DNA of 38,630 bases, taken from Deltaproteobacteria bacterium. GTDB taxonomy: Bacteria; Desulfobacterota; Syntrophia; Syntrophales; UBA2210. The position numbers and the translations under genes are program-made. The notes beneath the pieces are model-generated. The model saw only the letters and a program-made list of their open reading frames with translations, was not told the DNA's origin and did not search any database. The stretch spans positions 1 to 38,630 of the forward strand of contig JAFGBH010000097.1 of NCBI GenBank assembly GCA_016933215.1, read 5' to 3'. Below, in pieces: positions 1 through 38,630 of this stretch. The first letter of the stretch is position 1, and every line of letters starts with the position of its first letter.

Positions 1-143
1 AGAATTTATTTTCTGTGTTTTCTGGCAGAAAATAAATTCGTTAACTCACTTATCCCGATTGTCGGGATTAAGGAAAATGTTTGTTTTGTATTCTCGCTTC
101 TCCCGCCGCAGAGAGCGGGGAATGCGCTCACTGTTTAATTCAC
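1..143 (+). repeat. Dispersed repeat R1, copy a (cut by window edge)
   Basis: Right two thirds of an R1 element. It has the TTATTTTCTG / CAGAAAATAA inverted repeat (8-37), the CCCGAT-type dyad (about 53-68), the pyrimidine-rich TTCTCGCTTCTCCCGCCGC segment with its GCGGGG partner, and the right end. The right end overlaps the stop codon of the histidine kinase on the minus strand (TGA read from 142 to 140). Bases 1-45 are identical to the last 45 bases of the window. Confidence 0.85.
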
Positions 144-1915
144 GCCTGATTACTCTCCGTTGGGAGCAGAATTTCAAAGGTGGTCCCCGAGTCTATTGTG
201 CTCTCCACTTGAATTTCCCCGTTGTGACCCTTTATGATTTCATAAGCGAGAGGAAGCCCCAGTCCCAAACCTTTTTCCTTCGTCGTATATTCAGGATTGA
301 ATATCCGATCAATCTCGGCAGAGGTCAATCCGGAACCCGTATCGGAAATCCTGATGCTCATCTTGTCCCTTCCGTTCGGCTCAACGACAACCGAGATGGT
401 TCCTTCACCCGAAATAGACTCCATGGCGTTCTTCAAGATATTATAGAGGGCCTGTTTCATCTTATCCATGTCCATGGGAACCATAATATTGCGATCGTTA
501 TATCGGGCCTCCACCCTGATTCCCCTCGATGTGGCCTCCTCTTCCATGAGACTTATTATCTTTTCCAATACATATCCCACTGAATGATCACTCAGTTCCA
601 GCCTGCGACTCCTGAAAAAGGTGGCAAATTCTTCAATGATTCCGTTCAGGCGCAGTATCTCATCGCGAATTATTCCCGTAATATGGTAGAAGCCTTTCTT
701 CTTTTTCTCATCCGCCGGCATATATTCCCGCCTGACTCGTTGACTCGCCATACTGATGGCATTCAGAGGATTGCGGATCTCATGGGCGACGCCGGCGGCA
801 AGCTGACCGAGGGCGGAAAGCCGCTCCGCCTGCTGCAGCTGTTTTTCCATTTCCTCCACTCTTTCGGCATTCCTCTTCTGATTCCTGTAAAGTGCCCACA
901 CTGAAAGTATACCGATAACCATAATGAAAATCATGGAGGTTATCATTCGGTTCCTGTTTTCCAATAATATCGTGTCTCCCCCGGCTCGGTCCAGACCGAG
1001 ACGTGCGAATCCGACCACCTTTTCGTCAAGATGAACGGGAACAATAATCTCCAGGAGTCTCTTGTCCTGGAAGACCATCTTCCGGCTCGCCTTTGTTAAC
1101 CTGCCCTCCAACACATCCAGGGATATTGCATCCATTTCTTCAAATTTTTCGGGAACTTCACCTGCACGGCCGAGGGCCTTGCCATATTTGTTCATGACGA
1201 CAAGGTAGGCCAGTCCCTGCCCCCATCCTACCTCTTCGATCGCCTTCTCCACGGCAATCTTGGAGCTCCAATACCGCAATCCCTTGTCGTCAAGTGCTAC
1301 AACTATGGTACCGCTTCCATCCTTTCGGCGAAGTGCGATATATCCGATCTCGTCGAGTTTTCCAAATCTGTTGAAGAGATCTATCATGATCTCCTCCTGC
1401 CTCGATGCGGCAACGCTCGTTTTCGGGGGAAGGTCCTGAAGAAACTCCCTGCTCTGAAACACGATCGCCCCCTCCTTATTGAGAACGGCGATAAGCCAGA
1501 GGCTTTCCCTTTCGGCTATCTCCTCAAGATCTTTTTCGCTCAAAAGTTCCTTTTTCCATTCGACATCAATGTCACGCGCCAGATCGACCAGATTCTTAAC
1601 GAGGGACTCCTGCGGAGAAAATGCCTTATCTGTGAGAGGAACAAATTCGTCCTCCTCCTGATCTTCCTTCAGTGTCTGATAGAGATAGGTCAGATTCTCC
1701 TGCGCCACATTCTCGACCGTCGTTATTATGTCGAGGCCCCTGTTTTCCATGAAACCGATGAGCGTTTTGTCGAGTCTTCCCAAATCCATGAGCCCCATTA
1801 CCAGAATAAGGATAACAAAACCCACCATGACGAAGGCCACCGTAAGAGGCTGGAGGAAGGTCCTGCTATACCGGGCGGACGATCTCTGCTGAATTATCTT
1901 TTTTACCCTTTTCAT
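140..1915 (-). CDS. Membrane-bound sensor histidine kinase, ZraS/NtrB-like
   Basis: Two-component sensor of about 591 residues. A transmembrane helix lies at about residues 24-44, a large extracytoplasmic sensor region (about 45-323) follows, then a second helix (about 324-343). A short coiled coil precedes the H-box AAGVAHEIRNPLNAI, with phospho-acceptor His near 378. The ATPase domain has the N-box (NILKNA, about 493-498), DTGSG (about 525) and GLGLGL (about 549). No HAMP domain is evident. The start at 1915 is chosen because ATG overlaps the TGA of the upstream gene as ATGA, which suggests translational coupling; an in-frame ATG 39 bases further upstream lies inside that gene. The pairing with a ZraP-like protein suggests envelope or metal stress sensing (inference). 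No response regulator is in the window; it may lie beyond the left edge. The stop codon is in repeat R1. Confidence 0.9.
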   Translation of the reverse strand: MKRVKKIIQQRSSARYSRTFLQPLTVAFVMVGFVILILVMGLMDLGRLDKTLIGFMENRGLDIITTVENVAQENLTYLYQTLKEDQEEDEFVPLTDKAFSPQESLVKNLVDLARDIDVEWKKELLSEKDLEEIAERESLWLIAVLNKEGAIVFQSREFLQDLPPKTSVAASRQEEIMIDLFNRFGKLDEIGYIALRRKDGSGTIVVALDDKGLRYWSSKIAVEKAIEEVGWGQGLAYLVVMNKYGKALGRAGEVPEKFEEMDAISLDVLEGRLTKASRKMVFQDKRLLEIIVPVHLDEKVVGFARLGLDRAGGDTILLENRNRMITSMIFIMVIGILSVWALYRNQKRNAERVEEMEKQLQQAERLSALGQLAAGVAHEIRNPLNAISMASQRVRREYMPADEKKKKGFYHITGIIRDEILRLNGIIEEFATFFRSRRLELSDHSVGYVLEKIISLMEEEATSRGIRVEARYNDRNIMVPMDMDKMKQALYNILKNAMESISGEGTISVVVEPNGRDKMSIRISDTGSGLTSAEIDRIFNPEYTTKEKGLGLGLPLAYEIIKGHNGEIQVESTIDSGTTFEILLPTESNQA

Positions 1916-2352
1916 TTCCAGTCTCTCTTGGCGGACATTTCCCCGCTGGTGCACCAGACCTTTATCTGCTCGGGCGAGAGAACTCTCCGTATCTCTAACT
2001 GGTAATTGAGCACAACCCTGTCGAACGCCCTGTTCAGATCTTCGATTTCACCCGCCTTGACAAGCACCTTTTCTTCGCCTGTTTCCGGATCATTCAACAG
2101 GTTTCGTATCTCAATTCTCTTCACCATAAGATCGCTGCGAAGCTGGAGAATTCTTCTCCGATAGCTGGACCTGATCGCCTCTATCGCCTCCGCCTGCCCT
2201 GAAGAGAACTCCATTTTCGAGAGGGGGATACAGTCCTTGCTTTCTGAAACTGCATTATTGTCTTTTTTTTCTTCCACTGACCCCTGAGCCCAGAGAGGGG
2301 CAAATGAACCCAGAAAAATAAAAATGATGGCAATCAGGAAATAGTTTCTCAT
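1912..2352 (-). CDS. Periplasmic Spy/CpxP/ZraP-like stress protein
   Basis: A 146-residue exported protein. It has an N-terminal signal peptide (MRNYFLIAIIFIFLGSFAPLWAQ, cleavage near residue 23) and then a helical region rich in Arg, Glu and Leu (about 48-135). The spacing SxxRRRILQLRSDLMVKRIE and the closing LSPEQIKVW are typical of the Spy/CpxP/ZraP heavy-metal-resistor family, which act as periplasmic chaperones or feedback regulators of sensor kinases. A good ribosome-binding site (GGGAAGG) precedes ATG at 2352. The gene overlaps the kinase gene by four bases, so the two are one operon, as with zraP and zraS. The family assignment comes from overall pattern, not from an alignment. Confidence 0.78.
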   Translation of the reverse strand: MRNYFLIAIIFIFLGSFAPLWAQGSVEEKKDNNAVSESKDCIPLSKMEFSSGQAEAIEAIRSSYRRRILQLRSDLMVKRIEIRNLLNDPETGEEKVLVKAGEIEDLNRAFDRVVLNYQLEIRRVLSPEQIKVWCTSGEMSAKRDWK

Positions 2353-2538: not shown

Positions 2539-2556
2539 TTCGACAATTTTGTCGAA
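2539..2556. promoter_or_regulatory. Perfect dyad, candidate enhancer site for a sigma-54 activator
   Basis: TTCGACAATTTTGTCGAA: two perfect 8-bp arms separated by TT. It lies about 190 bp upstream of the predicted start of the sigma-54 promoter at 2721, a usual distance for upstream activating sequences of NtrC-family regulators. Half-site-like TCGACA (near 2628) and TGTCG (near 2696) occur between the dyad and the promoter. Assignment to a ZraR-like regulator is inference from the adjacent ZraP/ZraS-like pair. Confidence 0.55.
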
Positions 2557-2720
2557 TTTTACAAAAAATGCACCTTGAGACCAACTGGTTGTTATCATTA
2601 ATTTATTGTAATTCAGTCAGGAACTTCTCGACATTTCTTTCCTGAATGCGTAATGATTGCACCGTCTGCTTATCTCATAAACATCCATAATTTCATGTCG
2701 TTATTTAATTATACCGTGGC

Positions 2721-2736
2721 TGGCACGTAATATGCA
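2721..2736 (+). promoter_or_regulatory. Sigma-54 (-24/-12) promoter
   Basis: TGGCACGTAATATGCA matches the consensus TGGCACGnnnnTTGCA at every fixed position but one, with GG (2722-2723) and GC (2734-2735) at the obligatory spacing. The predicted transcription start is near 2747 on the plus strand. The nearest downstream gene starts at 3295, beyond a strong terminator, so the promoter probably drives a small RNA. Confidence 0.75.
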
Positions 2737-2746
2737 TCTACATAAC

Positions 2747-2952
2747 ATAGACAAGTCAGAAAACCCCTCCTAATTTTCTGGCTTAGACCCTAACCAACCG
2801 ATCTATTTATACAAGATACTGGCCTTTTATAAGTGCCAGTATCGCTGTTTCTGAGCCGGTTATTAAACATTGACGTGATTCTGATAGTAGGAATACGTCG
2901 GTTGGCAAAAACCTCCGGGGGGAGATTATCCAATCTCCCCCCATATTTTTTT
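2747..2952 (+). ncRNA. Candidate sigma-54-dependent small RNA (about 206 nt)
   Basis: Bounded by the sigma-54 promoter (2721-2736) and an intrinsic terminator (2917-2952). It has no credible reading frame with a ribosome-binding site. Hairpin 1 (2755-2782) has a 7-bp perfect stem CAGAAAA/TTTTCTG, extended by two pairs, and a ten-base loop CCCCTCCTAA that carries CCTCC, the complement of a Shine-Dalgarno core. Hairpin 2 (2815-2843) has a perfect 9-bp stem GATACTGGC/GCCAGTATC. A second single-stranded CCTCC lies at 2912-2916, just before the terminator stem. A loop exposing CCUCC suggests pairing with ribosome-binding sites of target mRNAs. This is inference; expression is unproven. It could instead be a leader that only partly terminates before the gene at 3295. 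Confidence 0.55.
2917..2952 (+). terminator. Strong intrinsic terminator
   Basis: Perfect 11-bp stem GGGGGGAGATT (2917-2927) / AATCTCCCCCC (2932-2942), loop ATCC, then ATA and a run of seven T (2946-2952). It is the natural 3' end for the transcript starting near 2747. Confidence 0.8.
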
Positions 2953-2978: not shown

Positions 2979-3173
2979 GTTGAGTCTCCCCGCAACAAGT
3001 TGCGGGAAATCTCCGACTGTTTAGTATGGTAGAAATTGTTTTCTGTGTACTTCTGACAGAAAATAATTTCGTTAACATACTTATCCCGTTTATCGGGGTT
3101 AAGGAAAAATGTATTTTTATTCGCTCGCTAACCCGCCGCATAAAGTGGGAAATGCGCTCGCTCACCAATTCAA
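2979..3173 (+). repeat. Dispersed repeat R1, copy b
   Basis: Diverged but nearly full-length copy. The left end TTGAGTCTCCCC is followed by a CCCGCAAC/GTTGCGGG stem, the conserved linker AATCTCCGACTGTTTAGTA, the TTTTCTG..CAGAAAA inverted repeat (one mismatch that would be G-U in RNA), the CCCG..CGGGG dyad, the ATTCGCTCGCTAACCCGCCG block and the right end CCAATTCAAA. It lies upstream of the gene at 3295 and is not attached to a stop codon, unlike most other copies. Confidence 0.85.
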
Positions 3174-3294: not shown

Positions 3295-4344
3295 ATGAAG
3301 ACACGGATGACTGAACTTCTCGGGATCAAATATCCCATCATGCTTTCCGGTATGAGCTGGATCAGTATCCCCGAAATGGTAGCCGCCGTTTCAAATGCAG
3401 GGGGGCTTGGCATACTCGCCACCGGTCCTTTGAATGCCAACGAAACACGAAAGGCCATCATCAGGATTCGCGAACTGACTGATAAACCATTCGGGGCAAA
3501 CGCGACACTTCTCTTCCCAGGGGCAAAGGAAAACGCAAAGGTACTCCTCGAGGAAAAGGTGCCCGTTATTAATTTTTCTCTTGGCAAGGGCGATTGGCTG
3601 GCAGAGGGCGCTCACAAATACGGAGGAAAGGTCTTTGCAACCGTGGTCAATGAACGGCACGCACTGGCGGCTCAGAAGCAGGGTGCCGACGGTATCGTTG
3701 CAACGGGGCATGAAGCAGCCGCACACGGCGGCGACGCAACGTCACTTGTCCTGATACCAACGATTGCCGATGTGGTAGACATCCCCGTCATCGCCGCCGG
3801 TGGATTCGCCGACGGGAGGGGGCTTATGGCGGCCCTTGCACTTGGAGCCTCGGGGATATCAATGGGGACCCGTTTAATGGCGACAAAGGAAAGCGGTCTT
3901 CATGAAAACTACAAGAAACTTTCACTCGAGAAAGGTGCAGACGATACGATTTATGGACGCTACTTCGACGGGCTCGGGTGCCGTTCACTGAAGACGCCTG
4001 CGGCTGTCAAGGCATACAGAAAGGGTTTCCTCGGAATGCCGAATTTCATTACCGCCATGAGCACTTCCAAGGATATCGCCAAGATGTTAAATCTCCCCTA
4101 TTTCAAATTGTTTATCGGGATACTGCTTTCGGGACCCAAGAACGCGATCATGATGGCCTATCTGGCGAATGCCTTCAAGGCAATAAGCCTTGCGACCGAA
4201 GAGGGGGATATGCAAAGAGGAGTTCTGACGGTAGGACAGTCGACGGGGCTTCTCCATGACATTCCCACCGTTGCCGAGCTCTTTGAGCGGATGACTGCCG
4301 AGGCCGAGGGGATTCAGAATCAGCTCTCCGAGGCAGTCAAATAA
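3295..4344 (+). CDS. Nitronate monooxygenase / FabK-like FMN-dependent TIM-barrel enzyme
   Basis: A 349-residue flavoenzyme of the 2-nitropropane dioxygenase family. The N-terminus TELLGIKYPIMLSGMSWIS and NAGGLGILA are family hallmarks. GHEAAAHGG (about residues 138-146) corresponds to the catalytic/flavin motif GxExGGHxG. IPVIAAGGFADG and ALALGASGISMGTRLM form the FMN phosphate site. Members oxidise alkyl nitronates or act as enoyl-ACP reductases (FabK); sequence alone does not decide which. AAAGGAGAG precedes ATG at 3295. The gene is monocistronic, with its own promoter upstream and a very strong hairpin downstream. Confidence 0.85.
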   Translation: MKTRMTELLGIKYPIMLSGMSWISIPEMVAAVSNAGGLGILATGPLNANETRKAIIRIRELTDKPFGANATLLFPGAKENAKVLLEEKVPVINFSLGKGDWLAEGAHKYGGKVFATVVNERHALAAQKQGADGIVATGHEAAAHGGDATSLVLIPTIADVVDIPVIAAGGFADGRGLMAALALGASGISMGTRLMATKESGLHENYKKLSLEKGADDTIYGRYFDGLGCRSLKTPAAVKAYRKGFLGMPNFITAMSTSKDIAKMLNLPYFKLFIGILLSGPKNAIMMAYLANAFKAISLATEEGDMQRGVLTVGQSTGLLHDIPTVAELFERMTAEAEGIQNQLSEAVK

Positions 4345-16793: not shown

Positions 16794-17528
16794 ATGAAAC
16801 CAGAGAAGTCATCCCTGAATTTCAATCCCTTTTCCGATCTGAAGAGTAAACTCAAGAAAGGACAGCTCTTCCCTTCCCCCCTTTCTCTCCCAAGGGACAA
16901 ACCTCTCGATGATGATAGAGTCAGTGGGTGCCGCGATGAAGAGCTCTTTCTGGAGTTAATGGCAGATGTGACCCCCCTATCGCAGGACAAGCATGCGAAA
17001 AAAAGCCCCAAACACAGTATTCAGGAGAAGCCTGAAGACCAAGACGAGGCCGAGGCGCTCCTTCGTCTCACCAATCTTGTCAGAGACGGAGAGGGGTTCG
17101 TCGTAGAGGACACACCCGAATATGTGGAGGGAACATGGCACACCGTCCATCCCGAAGTTGCGAAAAGACTGCACAGGGGCGAATTTTCCATTCAGTCACA
17201 CATCGATCTCCACGGGTGCAGCGCCGATGATGCAAAACATGTTATCGACGAGTTCCTGAGGGAATCAATACGGACTGACAGGAGGGCCGTTCTGGTTGTT
17301 CACGGACGCGGGTTGTCCTCGCCCGTCAAACCGGTGCTGAAAACGAAGGTCATCGAATGGCTCACGTCCTCACCGTGGAACAAGTGGGTCATTGCCTTTT
17401 CGAGCGCCCGTAGCTGCGACGGAGGAGCCGGTGCCACATACGTTCTTTTGAGAAAGAAACCCCTGACAAAACGATTTAAAAAGGTGAAGCTCCCCGCCCA
17501 CAGGGCGGGGCTTCCCGGTAAGGAATAG
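16794..17528 (+). CDS. Smr-domain protein with repeat-encoded C-terminal tail
   Basis: About 244 residues. An N-terminal polar linker with FNPFSDLKSKLKKGQ is typical of stand-alone Smr proteins. The Smr domain (about 150-225) contains IDLHGCSADDAKHVIDEFL, the conserved VVHGRGLSS and GATYVLLRK at its end. Smr domains are nicking or RNA-cleaving endonucleases and include ribosome-rescue factors. ATG at 16794 is preferred, since longer in-frame extensions overlap the previous gene and look unrelated. The last about 15 residues (KVKLPAHRAGLPGKE) come from repeat R2 and are shared with the TetR protein at 37662, so they are not ancestral to Smr. Confidence 0.85.
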   Translation: MKPEKSSLNFNPFSDLKSKLKKGQLFPSPLSLPRDKPLDDDRVSGCRDEELFLELMADVTPLSQDKHAKKSPKHSIQEKPEDQDEAEALLRLTNLVRDGEGFVVEDTPEYVEGTWHTVHPEVAKRLHRGEFSIQSHIDLHGCSADDAKHVIDEFLRESIRTDRRAVLVVHGRGLSSPVKPVLKTKVIEWLTSSPWNKWVIAFSSARSCDGGAGATYVLLRKKPLTKRFKKVKLPAHRAGLPGKE

Positions 17529-17593
17529 TTTCATTATAGTGCGCCCCTTGACCCCGCCTACAAGGCGGGGCTTGCGGGTGCGCCCCCGGTCAA
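17484..17593 (+). repeat. Dispersed repeat R2, copy A (110 bp)
   Basis: GTGAAGCTCCCCGCCCACAG begins a GC hairpin (CCCCGCCC/GGGCGGGG), followed by a TAG-containing AT spacer and a second hairpin (CCCCGCCT/AGGCGGGG) enclosed by TTGACC/GGTCAA. It differs from copy B (38349-38458) at only two of 110 positions. Its first 45 bases are translated as the end of the Smr protein, and the Nudix gene starts 12 bases after it. Confidence 0.95.
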
Positions 17594-17605
17594 GAAAGTG
17601 ATAGC

Positions 17606-27140: not shown

Positions 27141-28025
27141 ATGATTATGACAGGAAATGAAAAGAAGACGATGCCTATGAGAAAACCCGCCTGGCTCACA
27201 AGAAACCTGCCGAGGGGGCCCGAATATGAGAAGATACGGTCTCTTTTAAGAGAAAAGCGCCTCCACACCGTCTGTGAAGAGGCCCTCTGCCCCAACATAT
27301 GGCAGTGTTTTTCCAGCGGGACTGCCACGTTCCTCATTATGGGTCCCAAATGCACACGAAACTGTAAATTTTGCGCCGTGAATCACGGAAAACCAGAGAG
27401 TCCCGATCCCGGGGAACCCGGAAGAATAGCAGAAACAGCCCTCAGCCTGGATTTAGATTATCTGGTTATCACTTCCGTAACCAGGGATGATCTGCCCGAT
27501 GGCGGCGCGTCATGCTTCGCAGAAACAGTTGCCACAATAAGAGAACATATGCCAGAAGCACTCATAGAAATCCTGATACCGGACTTCCGGGGAGACAGAT
27601 CCCCTCTCAGGATCGTCCTTGAGGCGAGCCCCAATGTGCTTAATCACAACGTTGAAACCGTGCCCCGTCTTTACCCCGCGGCACGGCCGGAGGCCTCATA
27701 CAATCGTTCGCTGGAGCTTCTGCGAACATCCGGGGAAATCAAAGCCATGATACCCACCAAATCGGGTCTCATGCTCGGCCTGGGTGAGACTGACGATGAA
27801 ATCGAAACAACGCTTCGGGATATTGTCGGCACGGGATGCAGTATCCTCACGCTGGGCCAGTATCTTCAGCCTTCAAAGAAACACCTGCCCGTCGAACGCT
27901 TCATCCCTCCCGATGAGTTTGACAAATGGCGCGATTACGCGCATAGAATCGGATTTTCCGCCGTCGCAAGCGGTCCTTTTGTCAGAAGCTCTTACCGAGC
28001 CAGAGAACTCTACGAAACAATCTAA
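27141..28025 (+). CDS. lipA: Lipoyl synthase
   Basis: A 294-residue radical-SAM enzyme that inserts two sulfurs into protein-bound octanoyl groups to make lipoyl cofactor for 2-oxoacid dehydrogenases and the glycine cleavage system. The auxiliary cluster motif C-x4-C-x5-C is C45, C50, C56 (VCEEALCPNIWQC) and the radical-SAM motif CTRNCKFC is C71, C75, C78. The C-terminal RSSY supplies the serine ligand near 283-284. Start ATG 27141 has a weak site; ATG 27147 is possible. No octanoyltransferase (lipB) lies beside it. The TAA stop touches repeat R1 copy e. Confidence 0.96.
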   Translation: MIMTGNEKKTMPMRKPAWLTRNLPRGPEYEKIRSLLREKRLHTVCEEALCPNIWQCFSSGTATFLIMGPKCTRNCKFCAVNHGKPESPDPGEPGRIAETALSLDLDYLVITSVTRDDLPDGGASCFAETVATIREHMPEALIEILIPDFRGDRSPLRIVLEASPNVLNHNVETVPRLYPAARPEASYNRSLELLRTSGEIKAMIPTKSGLMLGLGETDDEIETTLRDIVGTGCSILTLGQYLQPSKKHLPVERFIPPDEFDKWRDYAHRIGFSAVASGPFVRSSYRARELYETI

Positions 28026-28132
28026 TTGAAGATCCCCGCAATCCCGATTATCGGGTTTAAGGAAAAATATATTCTTTATTCGCTCGCTAACCCCGCTGCA
28101 AGCAATGGGGAATGCGCTCGCTGTTCAGTTCG
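28023..28132 (+). repeat. Dispersed repeat R1, copy e (internally deleted)
   Basis: Short copy lying exactly between two convergent genes. The left end TAATTGAAG overlaps the TAA of lipA, and the right end GTTCAGTTCG holds the TGA of the flavoprotein gene read on the other strand. The first and second dyads are fused at GCAATCCCGATTATCGGG, so the TTTTCTG hairpin is lost. The CCCCGCTGC..GGGG block is kept. Confidence 0.88.
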
Positions 28133-37220: not shown

Positions 37221-37451
37221 ATTGAAGCTCCCCGCAATCCCGTATAAGCGGGATCTCCACTTTGCTCCGACACGTTGCGGGGAATCTCCGACTGTTTAGT
37301 AAGGTAGAATTTATTTTCTGTGTTTTCTGGCAGAAAATAAATTCTTTAACGCACTTATCCCGATTATCGGGTTTAAGGAAAAATGTATTTCTTATTCGCT
37401 CGCAATTCCCGCCGCAAGCAGCGGGGATTTGCGCTCGCTGTTCAGTTCAAA
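37221..37451 (+). repeat. Dispersed repeat R1, copy g (full length)
   Basis: Complete 231-base element, the best reference copy. The left end ATTGAAGCTCC is followed by a long stem CCCCGCAA/TTGCGGGG that encloses a second hairpin ATCCCG/CGGGAT, the linker GAATCTCCGACTGTTTAGTA, the perfect 10-bp inverted repeat TTATTTTCTG/CAGAAAATAA, the CCCGAT/ATCGGG dyad, TTATTCGCTCGC, a CCGC..GCGGGG stem and the right end GCGCTCGCTGTTCAGTTCAA. It lies between two divergent genes. Confidence 0.95.
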
Positions 37452-37661: not shown

Positions 37662-38393
37662 ATGCGGGTGGAAAACGAAATGGGAAAAAAGACAAAGAGC
37701 AACGGTCCCAGAAAAGAGAGAAAACAGAACATTCAGAAGGCGATTAATATTATGGAGGGCGCCCTCGATGTTTTCGGAGAAAAGGGCTACGAATCGACGA
37801 CCATATCGGACATATGCAGGGCGGCGAAAATCTCCGATGCAACCCTCTATGAGTATTTCAGTTCCAAAGAGGATGTGCTCTTTTCCATTCCCGAGATCTA
37901 CACGAAAAAAGAGCTCGATCGCATGATCGAGGTGGGTCGCTATATCCACGGTGCAAAAGAGAGGATGCGCCTGATAATTCAGGGATATCTTGAATTTTTC
38001 GAGAACAACCCGCTCTATACATCTGTTGTGCTCCTCACATTGAAGGGAAATAAAAACTTTACCGGTTCACCCGCCTACCAGGTTATTCGAAAATCCTCCC
38101 GCACTGTGGTCGATACATTCCAGCAGGGTATCGAAGAGGGAGTATTCAGGGATGATATCGATCCCTATATCGTCAGAAACATGGTTATGGGCTTTATCGA
38201 GCATTTGACTATACAGTGGCTTCTTATCGGGCGTCCCGAGAGCATATCCGATTATCGCGACACGATTTTCGACATGGTGATACGGGCAATTGAGAAAAGA
38301 GATGACAACGATTTCGTTGAGGTTAAACTGAAGATAGACACGCTAAAAGTGAAGCTCCCCGCCCACAGGGCGGGGCTTCCCGGTGAGGAATAG
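37662..38393 (+). CDS. TetR-family regulator with repeat-encoded C-terminal tail
   Basis: About 243 residues. The N-terminal helix-turn-helix (about 30-78) includes ALDVFGEKGYESTTISDICR and AAKISDATLYEYFSSKEDVL, a classic TetR domain. The all-helical ligand domain (about 85-215) has GYLEFFENNPLY and NMVMGFIEHLTIQWLLIG, as in FadR-type acyl-CoA-responsive repressors; this is inference, supported by the enoyl-CoA hydratase operon across the divergent region. ATG at 37662 has no strong site, and ATG at 37680 (MGKKTK) is possible. The last 15 residues (KVKLPAHRAGLPGEE) come from repeat R2 and match those of the Smr protein. Confidence 0.88.
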   Translation: MRVENEMGKKTKSNGPRKERKQNIQKAINIMEGALDVFGEKGYESTTISDICRAAKISDATLYEYFSSKEDVLFSIPEIYTKKELDRMIEVGRYIHGAKERMRLIIQGYLEFFENNPLYTSVVLLTLKGNKNFTGSPAYQVIRKSSRTVVDTFQQGIEEGVFRDDIDPYIVRNMVMGFIEHLTIQWLLIGRPESISDYRDTIFDMVIRAIEKRDDNDFVEVKLKIDTLKVKLPAHRAGLPGEE

Positions 38394-38458
38394 TTTCGTT
38401 ATAGTGCGCCCCTTGACCCCGCCTACAAGGCGGGGCTTGCGGGTGCGCCCCCGGTCAA
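38349..38458 (+). repeat. Dispersed repeat R2, copy B (110 bp)
   Basis: Matches copy A (17484-17593) at 108 of 110 positions. The two changes are one base in the GGT[AG]AGG stretch and one in TTC[AG]TTAT. Its first 45 bases encode the C-terminus of the TetR protein, ending at an in-repeat TAG. Its left-end hairpin begins TGAAGCTCCCCGC like that of R1, so the two families share a terminal module. Confidence 0.95.
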
Positions 38459-38500
38459 AAAAAGCAAAGGGCCACAAGGCAAAGCCACAAAAGGAACGTA

Positions 38501-38630
38501 ATTGAAGCTCCCCGCAATCCCGTATAAGCGGAATCTCCTCTTTTGCTCCGACAGTTGCGGGGAATCTCCGACTGTTTAGTAAGTTAGAATTTATTTTCTG
38601 TGTTTTCTGGCAGAAAATAAATTCGTTAAC
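38501..38630 (+). repeat. Dispersed repeat R1, copy h (cut by window edge)
   Basis: Left part of a full-length R1 element, beginning ATTGAAGCTCCCCGCAATCC and running to the right window edge inside GTTAAC. It lies 42 bases after R2 copy B. The last 45 bases are identical to bases 1-45 of the window. Confidence 0.95.

Follow-up and report, generated by a model that had tools for sequence, protein, structure and literature searches.

The window (i.e. the whole stretch of DNA that was analysed, 38,630 nucleotides) carries near its left end a gene for a membrane histidine kinase of the AtoS/ZraS kind (140-1954, minus strand; Pfam HisKA and HATPase_c). A gene for a ZraP-like periplasmic protein of 146 aa (1912-2352; Pfam Metal_resist, 31.2 bits against a cut-off of 29.2) lies on the same strand as the kinase gene, and is not transcribed from the divergent promoter described below. 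Facing the other way is a nitronate monooxygenase-like gene (3295-4344, plus strand), and between the two sides lie a set of control sites and a predicted small RNA of ~206 nt (2747-2952, plus strand) that is recognized by its fold and its homologues. The monooxygenase gene is a neighbour outside the RNA, with a terminator between them.

In relatives the kinase gene is followed by a gene for an NtrC-type regulator of ~453 aa, which supports the link to such a regulator drawn in an earlier note on this DNA. The copy in the window's genome lies on a different contig (G000:C1:189-1547), and comprises a receiver, a sigma-54 activation (AAA+) and a Fis-type domain. Contig C1 and the window have an identical 85-base end, but this stretch is a dispersed repeat, so that adjacency of kinase and regulator in this genome is inferred from the relatives. 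We note that this regulator reads RAFTGA where its relatives have GAFTGA, the motif that contacts sigma-54; this might be a real variant, possibly impairing the regulator, or an error of sequence or assembly. The earlier note described a ZraP/ZraS-like pair. This holds only loosely, because kinase and regulator fall far below the curated cut-offs; the window kinase scores 193.5 with the NCBIfam ZraS model (cut-off 479), and the regulator of a relative (G003) scores 457.9 with ZraR (cut-off 760). The AtoS and AtoC models give higher scores than ZraS and ZraR, while also remaining below cut-off.

The region contains several repeats. Dispersed repeats that are up to 97% alike occur in the window at 1-85, 2999-3108, 28025-28111, 37221-37427 and 38501-38630; they carry CGCTCGCT and CCCCGC palindromes, and one copy lies just past the terminator of the RNA. 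Contigs C5 and C1 share the dispersed repeat at their ends, and similar repeats follow the RNA in another genome (G016). In addition there is a 118-base direct repeat, 97% alike, at 17480-17597 and 38345-38462; a shorter, related sequence (2462-2503) lies in the interval from the ZraP-like gene to the dyad.

Control sites and predicted structure of the RNA

The first control site is a perfect dyad, TCGACAATTTTGTCGA, at 2540-2555. It has no strand, and is the sole exact TCGACAN4TGTCGA across the whole 2.69-Mb genome; it is presumed to be the main site of the NtrC-type regulator, in the absence of binding data. A second TCGACA site lies ~88 bases from the dyad, the half-site TCGACATTTCTTTCC at 2628-2642 on the plus strand (TCGACATTTnTTTCC in homologues). 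This is followed by a sigma-54 -24/-12 promoter on the same strand, TGGCACGTAATATGC at 2721-2735 (TGGCACGTAATATGCA when read to 2736). With the correct GG-GC spacing the promoter pattern is GGCAYNNNNNNTGC; in the window GG at 2722-2723 is separated by exactly 10 bases from GC at 2734-2735 (i.e. GG-N10-GC), predicting a start at ~2747, and TGGCA..TGC is aligned across the homologues. TGGCAYN6TGC occurs once in the window where 0.28 occurrences are expected; the match alone is therefore unremarkable, and the case rests on conservation. In the divergent region no consistent sigma-54 promoter was found that would face the kinase gene. Fourteen other dyads with one mismatch were inspected in the genome, none of which has a convincing sigma-54 promoter downstream, so that the regulon could not be extended in this way.

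The sequence 2746-2954 is predicted to fold with a free energy of -72.4 kcal/mol (z = -6.9), and none of 200 shuffled sequences was as good. All the elements of the RNA lie on the plus strand. Hairpin 1 has 11 pairs, including one G-U, formed by 2753-2763 and 2774-2784, and closes the loop CCCCTCCTAA at 2764-2773. Within the loop CCUCC (2766-2770) is predicted to be fully unpaired, and is identical to the core of the 16S anti-Shine-Dalgarno sequence. An unpaired AGACCC (2785-2790; consensus ARACCC) that is conserved in the homologues comes next. Hairpin 2, with nine perfect pairs (2815-2823 with 2835-2843), is enclosed by a long-range helix (2794-2802 with 2897-2905). A second unpaired CCUCC (CCTCC in the DNA, 2912-2916) lies just before an intrinsic terminator that was found by a terminator scan, having an 11-bp stem (2917-2927 with 2932-2942) and seven T at 2946-2952. 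The dyad, promoter, two hairpins and terminator that the earlier note had described are thus all present, between 2540 and 2952. The second TCGACA site, the long-range helix and the second CCUCC were not part of that description; the helix was also found in G003, where pairs are changed, and the second CCUCC is present in G003 and G005.

With Rfam 15 covariance models at gathering score, neither the window nor any of 18 homologous loci matched a small RNA family, and an additional Rfam comparison gave chance-level matches only. We found no description of such an RNA in the literature.

Conservation across the order

When 60 relatives were searched at the DNA level, five genomes from other genera gave short matches, which coincide exactly with hairpin 1. 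On aligning these, the dyad, second site, sigma-54 promoter, CCUCCU loop and a GGCUUARACCC tail were all found to be retained. Models built successively (R1, then R2) found the unit in 18 of 19 genomes of the window's family, and by eye the layout is alike in the nineteenth (G002). They also match five genomes of a second family, f15. The earlier note would have been refuted by homologous regions lacking both promoter and hairpins; when this was put to the test, dyad, second site, promoter and CCUCC hairpin proved to be kept in the 18 genomes and in the locus judged by eye. It had also proposed a search beside zraP homologues. The conserved unit is not confined to zraP neighbourhoods; its constant partner is the kinase/regulator pair, and a ZraP-like orthologue at this place is recognized in some relatives only. 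Weak order-level matches of R1 and R2 (among them L056, L058-L064 and L071) were inspected and rejected, as they have no dyad.

In the window's family the CCUCC motif lies within the loop of the first hairpin, whose stem covaries. In 21 sequences 88.9% of the cells of hairpin 1 are paired, compared with 74.6% on shuffling, and there are 28 double-change cells compared with 11.7; slid versions of the stem reach at most 55%. The alignment was fitted to a model made from six of the 21 sequences, which is a bias in favour. Despite the fitting, hairpins such as GCCGAAAA/TTTTTCGGC and CGAATC/GATTCG can be read directly from the unaligned sequences.

An orthologue of the window kinase is present in 142 of 155 genomes of the order. 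Upstream of it in ~40 genomes from some 18 families we find, in most, the dyad ~190 bases before a sigma-54 promoter. The order-wide arrangement comprises the TCGACA-N4-TGTCGA dyad, a second TCGACATTTnTTTCC site, the -24/-12 promoter and a folded RNA that leaves CCUCC or CUCCU exposed. In families other than the window's and f15 a shorter RNA is usual (mostly ~100-135 nt for the order-wide forms), having a hairpin with a GGGCAU loop, an unpaired CUCCUCCUGA and a terminator, and often a GAAGG..CCUUC hairpin as well. In the order beyond the window's own family, CCUCC or CUCCU is located in single-stranded sequence ahead of the terminator. The long and short RNAs may have a single origin, as their position and control sites suggest without settling the matter, or one and the same locus may have been refitted.

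A model of the order-wide form (R3) was built from 20 kinase-adjacent sequences and run over the 155 genomes without using the kinase. At E < 1e-6 it gave 105 matches, spread over 98 genomes; 94 of the matches are divergent from and upstream of a kinase orthologue, at a median distance of 310 bases. Since R3 was trained on kinase neighbours the recovery of those 20 is by construction; this does not apply to the other three quarters. R3 is in effect mostly a sequence model, as the RNAalifold structure of the alignment on which it was built missed obvious hairpins because that alignment is gappy. Covariation in the order-wide form is weaker than in hairpin 1, although of the same sign, and six members have fold z values of -2.4 to -6.5.

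Seventy-two homologous loci were examined for the individual motifs. The dyad matches at least 10 of 12 positions in 69, mostly 168-199 bases upstream of the promoter; shuffled upstream sequences reach 10 once. The second site has at least 9 of 14 matches in a similar place in 71 loci, for which there is no shuffle control. CCUCC or CUCCU is found in 67 compared with 15 expected from shuffles, and its unpaired probability is at least 0.6 in 54.

Matches of R2 and R3 elsewhere in the phylum, outside the order, are weak and lack the dyad, and these are not homologues. Two loci in the same phylum (L077 and L078, in G356:C81 and G398:C228) have a sigma-54-like promoter, a hairpin with a CCCUCC loop and a strong terminator, all placed after a coding gene has ended. 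A TCGACA dyad was not seen, and this analogous unit is judged not homologous on present evidence.

The loci are of two types. At most of those of type A, to which the window belongs, the RNA and histidine kinase genes are divergent. Copies of type B lie elsewhere without the kinase, most having both TCGACA sites and the promoter; this is what one would expect of a single regulator acting in trans on several RNA genes. In the window's family there are second copies that have diverged in sequence while keeping the same control sites. One genome (G052) we infer to be that of Syntrophus aciditrophicus SB, and hence the order to be Syntrophales. It has two copies, one next to the kinase and the other at a distance of 1.1 Mb, and each of them has the dyad and the promoter; the RNAs are predicted at ~1925216-1925337 (promoter 1925190) and 813866-813993 (promoter 813840). 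Separately, a locus in the window's own genome (G000:C85:8865-8965, minus strand) has a sigma-54-like promoter, a short RNA and a terminator with the loop AACUCCUU; no dyad was seen there.

Conservation at the level of sequence thus establishes the RNA as a unit, with its covarying hairpin, its predicted promoter and enhancer sites and its link to the kinase and regulator. Transcription of the RNA is inferred, and binding of this regulator to the dyad is deduced from the neighbourhood. Even without transcript data we have little doubt that the RNA is controlled by this two-component system.

Probable function of the RNA

We propose that the two-component system comprising the window kinase and the NtrC-type regulator would sense a signal that probably arises at the cell envelope. 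Once phosphorylated, the regulator would bind the TCGACA dyad and half-site, and loop to sigma-54 polymerase at 2721-2736. The product would be a terminated RNA of ~110-210 nt with a structured body that exposes one or more CCUCC or CUCCU sequences. As these copy the core of the 16S anti-Shine-Dalgarno sequence they could pair with the Shine-Dalgarno sequences of target mRNAs, whereby the RNA would block translation starts in trans, without Hfq. We regard this explanation as a whole as probable, while leaving real room for doubt.

The nature of the signal is likewise inferred. In one genome only (G029:C61) the dyad and promoter (767) precede an open reading frame (823, upstream orientation) in place of the RNA. 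This encodes a 154-aa ZraP/Spy-like protein (Pfam Metal_resist and LTXXQ), and its placement under the same promoter ties the regulon to the envelope. Together with the ZraP-like genes found next to the kinase in some genomes and the parallels with GlmY and LhrC discussed below, it points to stress of the envelope or from metals.

For an RNA that exposes the anti-Shine-Dalgarno core the simplest function would be to pair with Shine-Dalgarno sequences, and such masking is an inference that we think likely, though by no means secure. In part of the largest family (f14) CUCUUC replaces a clear unpaired CUCCU, and this counts against it. A bipartite search for targets (GGGCAU with the start codon, CUCCUCCU with the Shine-Dalgarno sequence) yielded nothing convincing and found none that recurs, except for two DsrC-like genes, for which no claim is made. 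These belong to two families (G060:C30:9874-9893 and G033:C12:7304-7323) and start AGGAGGTTTCRAGYATGCCC, complementary to CUCCU plus GGGCAU; the complementarity is possibly due to chance because the start of the protein is conserved. No Hfq was detected with the Pfam model in 12 genomes of the order, while 5 of 14 control genomes gave a match when searched alike. The lack of a match in the 12 fits structured RNAs with C-rich loops of the LhrC kind. It is conceivable, although we doubt it, that the RNA acts as a global stress brake, i.e. that a copy of the 16S anti-Shine-Dalgarno tail broadly lowers the translation of mRNAs with strong Shine-Dalgarno sequences. The RNA would then be the main direct output of one two-component system in an order without recognizable Hfq.

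Alternatively the C-rich stretch might bind a protein or another RNA, making the RNA a sponge, a decoy (as GlmY protects GlmZ) or a protein-binding RNA (as the RsmZ type binds CsrA). The structured body with redundant short motifs is compatible with this, the duplicated copies in several genomes would suit a decoy pair, and GGGCAU, a second conserved unpaired motif across the order, is not explained by Shine-Dalgarno masking. Yet most genomes were found to have a single copy, and sites of the CsrA type are GGA in loops, the opposite of CCUCC, so that we consider this unlikely. We think it very improbable that the RNA is a cis-acting leader or attenuator. In the window's family the nitronate monooxygenase gene is often next and in the same direction, but in most members terminators end the RNA and the downstream neighbour changes between genomes (nitronate monooxygenase, phytoene/squalene synthase-like, a convergent RarA-like gene and others); by eye, moreover, a -35/-10-like sequence belonging to the monooxygenase gene itself can be made out downstream of the RNA. 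That the transcript mainly encodes a small protein is scarcely credible; the promoter does drive the ZraP/Spy-like protein in the one genome, but 2747-2952 has no open reading frame of at least 50 aa, and in the order-wide forms, most of them so short, it is structure rather than frame that is conserved. Finally, a lone consensus match, that of the promoter for example, is no rarity, but a chance assembly of unremarkable hairpins in a gene-free stretch can be set aside in view of the conservation, covariation and fixed linkage over 155 genomes.

Relation to known systems

The preferred reading, a trans-acting anti-Shine-Dalgarno RNA under a Zra-like system, has several partial precedents. The Qrr RNAs are Hfq-dependent and act in quorum sensing. 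In Vibrio they are several small RNA copies under one NtrC-type regulator, LuxO, with sigma-54 (PMC8043402). Several copies under one such regulator are a shared feature, but the present RNA has no Rfam match to them. GlmY of the Enterobacteriaceae is a sigma-54-dependent small RNA with an NtrC-type regulator, the genes of the two-component system QseE/QseF (GlrK/GlrR) being adjacent, and is linked to envelope homeostasis (PMC6075780). The promoter class, the kind of regulator and the adjoining two-component genes are alike. However, glmY lies upstream of the qse operon, has TGTN12ACA sites and acts as a decoy through RapZ, whereas the RNA described here is divergent, has TCGACAN4TGTCGA plus a half-site, and matches nothing in Rfam. 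The E. coli ZraPSR system has a divergent regulated promoter whose product is ZraP, and its regulator is nearly single-target (PMC8249747). Kinase, NtrC-type regulator and divergent regulated promoter correspond, but here almost all genomes have an RNA as the divergent product, and only some have a ZraP-like gene next to the kinase.

LhrC of Listeria (~111-114 nt) depends on the two-component system LisRK, is induced by envelope stress, is present in several copies and can dispense with Hfq; it has redundant CU-rich sites in loops and single strands (PMC4132741). It differs in its motif (UCCC, not CCUCC), its phylum and its lack of sigma-54, and there is no sequence match. RsaE, FsrA, IsrR and other small RNAs of Firmicutes with C-rich loops pair with Shine-Dalgarno sequences by an unpaired C-rich motif (PMC4132741). 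The exposed C-rich motif complementary to the Shine-Dalgarno sequence is common to these and the present RNA, but their motifs and control are different, and this is analogy only.

We conclude that the small RNA family is real and apparently undescribed, although its general kind is already known. What is unusual is its order-wide spread, fixed tie to one two-component system, anti-Shine-Dalgarno motif and occurrence without recognizable Hfq. It would provide a natural case of base-pairing control by an anti-Shine-Dalgarno copy, free of Hfq and outside the Firmicutes. The prediction can be tested at the two loci of the cultured species S. aciditrophicus. For the Syntrophales, key anaerobic syntrophs that are mostly uncultured, this is apparently the first regulatory RNA of order-wide spread, and its control circuit can be named; an NtrC/Zra-type system of unknown output acquires a single predicted main product.
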